A DNA stretch of 64,000 bases, from positions 1-64,000 of the IMG/VR virus record IMGVR_UViG_3300044642_000803. One strand, written 5' to 3'. Within the stretch, counting starts at the first letter, position 1, and each line of letters opens with the position of its first letter. Positions 1,054-3,145 of this stretch are shown here, in pieces. Position numbers and translations under genes: made by a program. The notes beneath the pieces are model-generated. The model did no database searches and was not told where the DNA came from. It worked only from the letters and a program-made list of their open reading frames with translations. The DNA comes from a virus.

Positions 1054-1182
1054 TTAGTCCTGGGGGAGGCAGACCACACGGAAACCGATGCCGAGGCCGT
1101 AGCGGCCGTCCGGGTGGAAGCCGTTGCGGGAAGCCGAGCGGCAGAACCCGGGGTTGTTGTTCCACGACCCGCCGCGCAACAG
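1054..1182 (-). repeat. Variable region VR-A2 (frame 0 C-terminus)
   Basis: Codes for LLRGGSW...FRVVCLPQD. Compared with the three other variable regions in the window, the framework codons are conserved and nearly all changing codons are of NNC type, as expected from adenine-directed mutagenesis of AAC codons in a template repeat. Confidence 0.8.
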
Positions 1183-2112
1183 CCGATCAGGAGAGGCAAC
1201 AGACGCGGAAACCGATGCTGTAGTTGCGGTTGTCCGGGGGGACGCAGTTGACGCGGGCTGCCGCTCGGCCGCCCGCGGGGAGGCTGCCCCACGACCCGCC
1301 GCGCAGCACTTTCCCAGGCTGTCGACCTCCGTCCAGGCCCCACCGTCGGTCGGTGCCCCGTCGTAATTGTTGTGCCATTCATCCAGGCACCATTCCCAGA
1401 CGTTGCCGTGCATATCATGCAGGCCCCAGGGGTTGGCGGGGAAGCTGGCCACCTCTGTTGTTTGCGCAGTGCCGCAATTAGCCAGCTCCGGCGTCAGCGT
1501 GGCCCCGAAATGAAACGGCGTGGTGCTGCCGGCGCGGCAGGCGTATTCCCACTGGGCCTCGCTCGGCAGCCCATAACGCTGACCCGTGCGCTGGCTCAAC
1601 CGGCGGCAGAACTCCAGCGCATCAAACCAGCTCACCATCTCCACCGGACGGTTTGCACCCTTGAAATATGAAGGATCGGGGTCCAGGTCGCGCTCCTGCT
1701 TCTGCCAACCCGCCACCGCCCGCCACTGAGCCTGGGTAATCGGTGTCTGGGCCATGAAGAAAGAGGCCAGGGTCACCTCGTGCTGGGGGCCTTCAACCCT
1801 TGATCGGCTAGACTCGTTCGCGGGAGAACCCATCAGAAACCTGCCGGCGGGGATGAGGACCATTCGTATCAGGCTGTCATCTACCGGGGCGGCCGGTGCT
1901 GTTAGATCGTTGACCCCACGCTCCAGGGCCTCCAGCCGGCGGCAGATCGCGGCGATGGTGTGGGTGTAGCTGTCCACGAATACTGCAACATCTTGATCGT
2001 GCTTATCGGCGCGGGCGATCAGGTGCAGTAGCGCCTGAGCGTCACGCTGGCCGGCATTGGCGGCATGATTGAGCCAGGCCAGGGTTTGGGAAGGAAGGGG
2101 AAGGGGGCTCAT
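1054..2112 (-). CDS. DGR target protein A: FGE-sulfatase/C-type-lectin-like variable protein with two tandem variable regions
   Basis: In frame 0 this is a 352-residue protein. Residues 1-66 are a helical N-terminal module shared with the next gene. An FGE-sulfatase fold follows, with the hallmarks IPAGRFLMGS, QWEYACRAG and GLHDMHGNVWEWC. C-type-lectin/FGE proteins of this kind are the standard targets of diversity-generating retroelements. The C-terminus is a variable region (LLRGGSWNNN...GIGFRVVCLPQD). Between core and C-terminus lies a first variable region that is only readable in the -1 frame, entered at GGGAAAG (1309-1315). A -1 shift gives a 308-residue product ending VLRGGSW...GFRVCCLS. 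Without the shift, that stretch becomes an Ala/Ser/Thr-rich linker leading to the second variable region. The function is probably binding or adhesion by analogy; the ligand is unknown. Confidence 0.85.
   Translation of the reverse strand: MSPLPLPSQTLAWLNHAANAGQRDAQALLHLIARADKHDQDVAVFVDSYTHTIAAICRRLEALERGVNDLTAPAAPVDDSLIRMVLIPAGRFLMGSPANESSRSRVEGPQHEVTLASFFMAQTPITQAQWRAVAGWQKQERDLDPDPSYFKGANRPVEMVSWFDALEFCRRLSQRTGQRYGLPSEAQWEYACRAGSTTPFHFGATLTPELANCGTAQTTEVASFPANPWGLHDMHGNVWEWCLDEWHNNYDGAPTDGGAWTEVDSLGKCCAAGRGAASPRAAERQPASTASPRTTATTASVSASVASPDRLLRGGSWNNNPGFCRSASRNGFHPDGRYGLGIGFRVVCLPQD
1187..1309 (-). repeat. Variable region VR-A1 (-1 frame C-terminus)
   Basis: Codes for 40 residues VLRGGSW...GFRVCCLS then TGA, in the -1 frame relative to the core of gene 1054-2112. 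The joint is LGK/VLRGGSW at GGGAAAG. Its variable codons (GGC, AGC, CTC, GTC, TAC, AAC and others) again end in C. Confidence 0.75.
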
Positions 2113-2158
2113 AATCAACAGGCAGGGGTAAAGAATTAAAGGGTAAAAGAGTAAAGAA

Positions 2159-2284
2159 TTAGTCCTGGGGGAGGCAACAGACGCGGAAACCGATGCCGTA
2201 GATGCGGAGGCCCGGGAGGTGGAAGTAGCGGAAAGCCGAGCGGCAGAGCCTGGGGTTGAAGTTCCACGACCCGCCGCGCAGCAG
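2159..2284 (-). repeat. Variable region VR-B2 (frame 0 C-terminus)
   Basis: Codes for LLRGGSWNFNPRLCRSAFR...FRVCCLPQD. The framework is shared with VR-A2, and most changing codons are NNC (TTC, CTC, TAC, CAC, ATC). Confidence 0.8.
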
Positions 2285-3145
2285 CCGATCAGGGGAGGCA
2301 ACAGACGCGGAAACCGACGCTGTTGAGGGCATAGTCGGGATGGTCGTGGCTGCGGTAGGCCGAGCGGCAGTCCCTGGGGCCGTTGAGCCAGGAGCCGCCG
2401 CGCAGCACTTTCCCAGGCTGTCGCCCTCCGTCCAGGCCCCACCGTCGGACGGGGCCCCGTCGTAGTTTTTGTGCCATTCATCTAGGCACCATTCCCACAC
2501 ATTGCCGTGCATATCATGCAGGCCCCAAGCATTGGCAGGGAAACGCCCCACGTCGGTAGTTTGCTTAGCGTCGTAGTTGGCCAGCTCCGGCGTCAGCGTG
2601 GCCCCGAAATGAAACGGCGTGGTGCTGCCGGCGCGGCAGGCGTATTCCCACTGGGCTTCGCTCGGTAGGCCGTAACACTGGCCCGTGCGCTGGCTCAACC
2701 GGCGGCAGAACTCCAGCGCATCAAACCAGCTCACCATCTCCACCGGACGGTTTGCACCCTTGAAATATGAAGGATCGGGATCCAGGTCGCGCTCCTGCTT
2801 CTGCCAACCCGCCACCTCCCGCCACTGGGCCTGGGTGATCGGTGTCTGGGCCATAAAGAAAGATCCCAGGGTCACCTCGTGCTGGGGGCCTTCATCATCT
2901 GATCGCCCCGGCTCGTTCTCAGGCGAACCCATCAGGAAGCTGCCGGCAGGAATAAACGCCAGCGGGATTAGGTCTGCTACTGGGGGCTTGGCTGCTGCAG
3001 TTGCTTGGGGCTGATAATCGGCGTCAATTTTCACCAGCTCGGTCAGTGCGGCGGTAGCGCTAGCAAATAGGGCCAGATCGTTTTGAGCGCGGACAAACTT
3101 CACAGCAAACTCAAAGCCGGCGCGGCTAGAATCAAAGGTGCTCAT
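2159..3145 (-). CDS. DGR target protein B: FGE-sulfatase/C-type-lectin-like variable protein with two tandem variable regions
   Basis: In frame 0 this is a 328-residue protein. The N-terminus (MSTFDSSRAGFEFAVKFVRA) is unrelated to that of target A and looks like a small helical attachment domain. The FGE core (IPAGSFLMGS, QWEYACRAG, GLHDMHGNVWEWC) is nearly identical to target A. As in A, the core runs into GGGAAAG (2408-2414). A -1 shift gives a 285-residue protein ending in VR-B1, while frame 0 runs through VR-B1 as a low-complexity linker and ends in VR-B2. The ATG overlaps the end of the gene before it by 14 bases. Core identity with A points to recent duplication, whereas the variable codons differ widely between A and B. 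Confidence 0.85.
   Translation of the reverse strand: MSTFDSSRAGFEFAVKFVRAQNDLALFASATAALTELVKIDADYQPQATAAAKPPVADLIPLAFIPAGSFLMGSPENEPGRSDDEGPQHEVTLGSFFMAQTPITQAQWREVAGWQKQERDLDPDPSYFKGANRPVEMVSWFDALEFCRRLSQRTGQCYGLPSEAQWEYACRAGSTTPFHFGATLTPELANYDAKQTTDVGRFPANAWGLHDMHGNVWEWCLDEWHKNYDGAPSDGGAWTEGDSLGKCCAAAPGSTAPGTAARPTAATTIPTMPSTASVSASVASPDRLLRGGSWNFNPRLCRSAFRYFHLPGLRIYGIGFRVCCLPQD
2289..2408 (-). repeat. Variable region VR-B1 (-1 frame C-terminus)
   Basis: Codes for 39 residues VLRGGSWLNGPRDCRSAYR...GFRVCCLP then TGA, in the -1 frame relative to the core of gene 2159-3145. Its stop codon lies just before VR-B2. Confidence 0.75.

Follow-up and report, generated by a model that had tools for sequence, protein, structure and literature searches.

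FGE/C-type-lectin DGR targets (Treponema denticola TvpA, structure 2Y3C; cyanobacterial variable proteins) are closely related in design to the two viral genes analysed here, with which they share an FGE core, a C-terminal variable region (VR) of the type LRGGSW...GFR and adenine-specific differences from a template repeat (TR); a fold match to 2Y3C adds to this likeness. They differ from genes A and B in that the latter possess two VRs, placed in different reading frames with a slippery site at the frame change, and in that RT and TR were not found on the viral record. Several VRs per ORF have been described before: 31 of 271 DGRs are of the multi-VR type (PMC6642488), and DGR4 comprises three tandem CLec domains (PMC10907252). 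These systems resemble ours in the number of VRs per ORF, in differing activity between the VRs and in action in trans within a genome; however, no alternative frame or recoding was described for them, and whereas the copies in our genes would act as alternative C-termini, theirs are serial domains of one chain (PMC6642488; PMC10907252).

A further group of described systems concerns translation. The frameshift site of phage lambda G/GT is G GGA AAG. Heptamers of the types G GGA AAG and A AAA AAG both recur in the genes studied here. In E. coli, G GGA AAG is a site of high shift-proneness, and dnaX has an SD-like stimulator approximately 10 nt upstream, the spacing of the SD-like motif in genes A and B (PMC5009743); in lambda G/GT and dnaX one mRNA yields two products with a common N-terminus, as we propose below. 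Unlike lambda G/GT and dnaX, both products proposed here end in a hypermutated module. A search of the open-access literature found no paper in which DGR targets are joined with ribosomal frameshifting, in line with the sequence-only reading, which knew of no described DGR with a frame-selected double display.

The virus behind record IMGVR_UViG_3300044642_000803 (66,886 nt) is most likely a cyanobacterial virus; positions 1-64,000 of this record constitute the stretch of DNA that was analysed (64,000 nt; hereafter, the window). Genes A and B (Table 1) are neighbouring paralogues, positioned among replication-type genes and apart from the tail genes, and their DNA identity amounts to 91% in the core, 69% in VR1 and 78% in VR2. 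Direct reading of both genes bears out the layout that had been noticed from the letters: an FGE core is followed by VR1, which lies in the -1 frame and ends with its own TGA, and then by VR2 in frame 0, whose C-terminus reads FRVCC or FRVVC. Equally correct was the observation that frame 0 turns VR1 into a linker of about 42 residues rich in Ala, Ser and Thr, in which we find Pro to be abundant as well. The N-terminal part of gene B is a repeat of the start of the next downstream gene (window 809-1108 and 1914-2213; 300 bases, 88%), and gene B consequently looks like a fusion of the N-terminus of the downstream gene with an FGE core.

Table 1. Positions in the window of genes A and B, their variable regions and the candidate frameshift signals.
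Feature	Position	Strand	Description
Gene A, frame-0 ORF	3145..2159	(-)	328 aa; FGE-sulfatase/C-type-lectin core, linker across VR1, VR2; PF03781, E 3e-49
Gene A SD-like GGAGG	2425..2429	(-)	10 nt upstream of heptamer
Gene A slippery heptamer G GGA AAG	2414-2408	(-)	in phase, at the junction of frame 0 and -1
Gene A VR1	2405-2289	(-)	-1 frame; LRGGSW start, GFRVCC end, own TGA at 2291-2289
Gene A VR2	2281-2159	(-)	core frame (frame 0)
Gene B, frame-0 ORF	2112..1054	(-)	352 aa; same architecture as gene A
Gene B SD-like GGAGG	1326..1330	(-)	10 nt upstream of heptamer
Gene B slippery heptamer G GGA AAG	1315-1309	(-)	in phase, at the junction of frame 0 and -1
Gene B VR1	1306-1187	(-)	-1 frame; LRGGSW start, GFRVCC end, own TGA at 1189-1187
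Gene B VR2	1179-1054	(-)	core frame (frame 0)

What had been missing from the sequence-only reading is the GGGAAAG present at the frame change and, with it, a route into the -1 frame, which is likely to be -1 programmed ribosomal frameshifting. In both genes, the heptamer has the exact X|XXY|YYZ phase of an X XXY YYZ slippery site. The codons that end frame 0 ahead of VR1 are CTG GGA AAG; after a slip, GGG AAA and then GTG would be read, so that the protein sequence continues as SLGK-VLRGGSW. Neither gene contains another in-phase GGGAAAG or AAAAAAG, and elsewhere in the virus there are three among approximately 9,000 other codons tested. On these grounds and those set out below, we put at about 80% the probability that genes A and B are DGR targets in which a -1 programmed ribosomal frameshift chooses the VR that completes the protein; frameshifting at the heptamer, at whatever rate, is a prediction from the DNA sequence. 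An in-phase GGGAAAG is also found at 42248-42254, on the plus strand of the window, within a G/GT-like pair of overlapping genes (window 41700-43030; frame-0 ORF 41700-42401, overlapped by a -1 ORF reaching 43030); a tail protein and the tape-measure gene follow downstream of this pair. From its sequence context, this site looks like a true tail-chaperone frameshift of the lambda G/GT kind, and could serve as a natural positive control in the same virus.

The joint between core and VR was compared with that of single-VR homologues. The closest of these, L013, has the joint CTGAGAAAGCTGCTG versus CTGGGAAAGTGCTG in gene A; the corresponding codons are CTG AGA AAG CTG CTG CGC in L013 and CTG GGA AAG TG CTG CGC in gene A. 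Relative to L013, the gene A joint is thus short of one base and carries an A-to-G change that creates the heptamer. Of 130 single-VR homologues, 126 have 32-54 codons between GNVWEW and RGGSW; in dual-frame genes this distance comprises about 35 codons via the -1 frame as opposed to 76-87 via frame 0 (277 in L032), a finding that supports the earlier claim of a canonical joint in the -1 product. Every dual-frame gene has a -1 stop (TGA or TAA, in differing surroundings) within a few codons after VR1, and these stops fall outside the template-matching part.

A protein search of viral contigs led to 79 loci. Counting genes A and B, we recognized 15 distinct dual-frame genes (A, B, L006, L008, L009, L011, L012, L015, L016, L017, L018, L020, L021 together with L024, L026, and L032), each of which combines a -1-frame VR1 with a VR2 in frame 0, the place of the latter being taken in L032 by the sixth VR. 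Judged from these contigs, at least a dozen related viruses have the same layout. In addition, we ran two frame-blind DNA searches in which the spacing was free to vary over 31 bases; they identified 14 and 16 contigs, respectively, and in all 16 contigs of the second search the tandem VR pairs were spaced 1 mod 3 (spans of 52, 55 or 58 bases). A search of related phages had been suggested as a check on the arrangement; it yielded 13 further distinct genes on independent contigs with the same frame offset. An origin of the extra copy through faulty assembly, or through a single frameshift mutation confined to this contig, has therefore become extremely improbable: tandem repeats are indeed prone to mis-assembly, and L024 carries an extra 127-nt cassette copy relative to L021, but two paralogues and 13 distinct genes from different metagenomes, with different VR sequences, display the same offset, and these comparative data refute the idea.

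Of the 14 two-VR genes, seven have GGGAAAG and one (L020) has AAAAAAG at position -12 from the RGGSW codon, whereas six have GGGGGAG. When the region between core and VR1 is considered, in-phase GGGAAAG or AAAAAAG is present in 9/15 dual-frame genes versus 1/130 single-VR homologues, and GGGGGAG in the other 6/15 versus 0/130, counts that ignore the kinship of the genes. The GGGGGAG heptamer of these six genes is a non-canonical tandem-slip site, since re-pairing of the A-site tRNA would put a G.U pair in the middle position. GGGAAAG (L009, L016) and GGGGGAG (L008, L011, L012, L026) occur side by side in one clade. L020, whose core is divergent, likewise carries its A AAA AAG at -12, and there is a -1-frame stop just six codons upstream of the RGGSW codon; hence, a shift in this gene must take place at or very near the heptamer. 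In the core tree the dual label requires seven changes, at least two of which are forced by well-supported branches; support is otherwise weak, so that repeated origin, module exchange and loss all fit the distribution of the label. Scans with degenerate slippery-plus-VR patterns gave mostly noise among the matches listed and were discarded.

Candidate stimulators were found near the heptamer. An SD 5-mer is positioned 9-14 nt upstream in 11 of 14 genes (background 2.3%), the spacing at which such elements stimulate -1 shifts (PMC5009743). The SD-like motif is also present in the single-VR gene L013 and is therefore partly inherited, and it was not found at any of the five L032 cassettes. A GC-rich hairpin from the constant parts of VR1 scores weakly better than shuffled sequences (z -1.0 to -3.0); this hairpin is part of the template and occurs in every VR, and we have set it aside as evidence for frameshifting. 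Transcriptional slippage or internal initiation, instead of ribosomal frameshifting, is a very unlikely way of reaching the -1 frame. Slippage might profit from the A6 run in L020 and the G5 run in six genes, but GGGAAAG is devoid of a long homopolymer, and bacterial slippage has been described on runs of approximately 9 A or T (PMC5009743). An ATG directly after the -1-frame stop of genes A and B could be taken as a sign of internal initiation; however, this ATG is absent from L011, L012, L015, L016, L017, and L020, and we rejected internal initiation of the -1 ORF because of this lack of conservation. Moreover, a short product that lacks the core would not adopt the FGE fold.

The case for both VRs being DGR substrates comes from a guessed template, for which we searched 300 genomes from the presumed host family, to which Synechococcus sp. 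Tobar12-5m-g belongs. It was matched at 96% by a repeat (1025-1144) beside an RT gene (1397-2035) on contig 157 of genome G299, and at 93% by a second repeat beside an RT gene on contig 9 of genome G334. Compared with the G299 TR, the VR1 sequences of 12 genes were changed at 155 of 300 adenine sites (52%) versus 71 of 996 other sites (7%), and the VR2 sequences of 12 genes at 179/300 (60%) versus 73/996 (7%); in VR2 of gene A, 17 of 25 template adenines were changed but only 3 of 80 other bases. Substitutions in VR1 and VR2 alike are thus concentrated at template adenines, which makes VR1 a hypermutated site like VR2.

The mutator itself appears to reside elsewhere. RVT_1 was without a match in the virus record (66,886 nt) and in 24 related viral records, all of which may be incomplete, although this search did detect RTs in host genomes and in other records. 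Our search for an RT close to the genes was negative, the viral stretches screened yielded no TR-like copy, and the virus record, incomplete as it may be, accordingly showed no complete cis-acting DGR cassette with its RT and TR on the genome of the target. As an RT turned up in none of the dual-frame viral records, diversification probably occurs in trans from the host; most likely, an RT and template repeat of a DGR on the host chromosome mutagenise both viral VRs. The repeats of the G299/G334 type, together with relatives of the core in Cyanobium and Synechococcus, point to a host among the Cyanobiaceae. The viral FGE genes would then seem to be remote targets of Cyanobium/Synechococcus-type host DGRs. 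A DGR RT with a template repeat was observed in Cyanobium/Synechococcus-type genomes at four loci (G299 contig 157, G334 contig 9, L175, and L219), which contrasts with the reported absence of DGRs from Synechococcus spp. (PMC7517822).

Multiplication of the VRs goes furthest in L032, where an array (5844-7550) contains five -1-frame VRs with their own stops, a sixth VR in frame 0 and a seventh in the third frame. Each of the five serial -1 cassettes has an in-phase GGGAAAG, at -24 or -27 from its RGGSW codon. The additional 127-nt VR1 cassette by which L024 exceeds L021 is an identical copy, and each such additional copy rotates the reading frame of everything downstream. In other virus families (L037, L038, L039, L044), two or three in-frame VRs precede the FGE core with a spacing of 153; the 1-mod-3 offset is therefore a property of the dual-frame arrangement.

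An AlphaFold2 model built from 18 sequences was too poor to use and was replaced by one built from 98 sequences. In the latter (mean pLDDT 82.8, pTM 0.81) the core and VR2 of the frame-0 product are confidently placed and the linker is disordered; Foldseek matched it to PvdO, human FGE and TvpA (2Y3C). Together with the PF03781 match, the model thus describes a C-type-lectin/FGE scaffold with a C-terminal VR, and the frame-0 product is predicted to fold with VR2 in place. The joint between core and VR in the -1 product has the same length as in ordinary single-VR members of the family, and we infer that it folds like these. Simulated mutagenesis of the template produced zero stops in all three frames, with only the residue make-up differing, and we consequently dropped the claim that the 1-mod-3 offset alone is stop-proof. 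When read in frame 0, the mutated template encodes mainly Ala, Ser, Pro and Thr (approximately 75%) and never runs into a stop, which suits a flexible linker.

These data also bear on an alternative in which VR1 is a DGR landing copy that is left untranslated in its own frame, with the frame-0 polypeptide as the only product, VR1 in the role of a variable linker or of a spare donor to VR2, and the heptamer as a relic of a formerly in-frame GK-V joint. None of the dual genes has a frame-0 stop within VR1, VR2 is confidently placed in the predicted fold, a one-base change separates the joint of L013 from that of gene A, and copying of the template by itself keeps the VR1 frame open, all of which such a scenario would accommodate. 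It leaves unexplained, however, why, in different cores, the frame change coincides with a slippery heptamer in phase (GGGAAAG, AAAAAAG), why the heptamer is kept in each of the five L032 cassettes, why the offset is 1 mod 3 in 16/16 tandem pairs, and why untemplated -1 stops directly follow VR1. We hence regard it as unlikely and favor frameshifting. The suggestion of the sequence-only reading that two proteins, differing in their variable C-termini, can be made from each gene gains support from the in-phase heptamer, the 1-mod-3 offset and the -1 stops.

In the frameshifting model, ribosomes would translate the FGE core in frame 0 up to G GGA AAG, where slipping may be promoted by the SD-like GGAGG element located 10 nt upstream and perhaps also by the GC-rich hairpin from the constant parts of VR1. 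Some of the ribosomes would slip to GGG AAA, add the VR1 C-terminus and terminate at the TGA just past VR1, giving a product with the canonical core-VR joint SLGK/VLRGGSW. The remaining ribosomes would continue in frame 0, in which VR1 encodes a linker of small residues, and would place VR2 at the C-terminus. By slipping or not slipping at one site, one mRNA would therefore give rise to two proteins with a common core and independently diversified tips. We hold it to be somewhat more probable than not that the wider picture applies, in which frameshifting selects between DGR-diversified C-termini in alternative frames of a gene, one virus carries five serial cassettes plus an in-frame end (potentially six tips per mRNA), and a host retroelement diversifies a virus.

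If this is true, recoding would constitute a second layer on top of DGR diversity, endowing each gene with two independently evolving binding tips in a ratio set by the slippery site, so that variants of one tip could be explored with the other left unchanged; L009 and L016, whose VR1 sequences are identical and whose VR2 sequences differ at a core identity of 96%, may be compared in this respect. It would also point to viruses that have retained the target alone and rely on the mutator of their host, viruses that DGR surveys anchored on the RT would miss.
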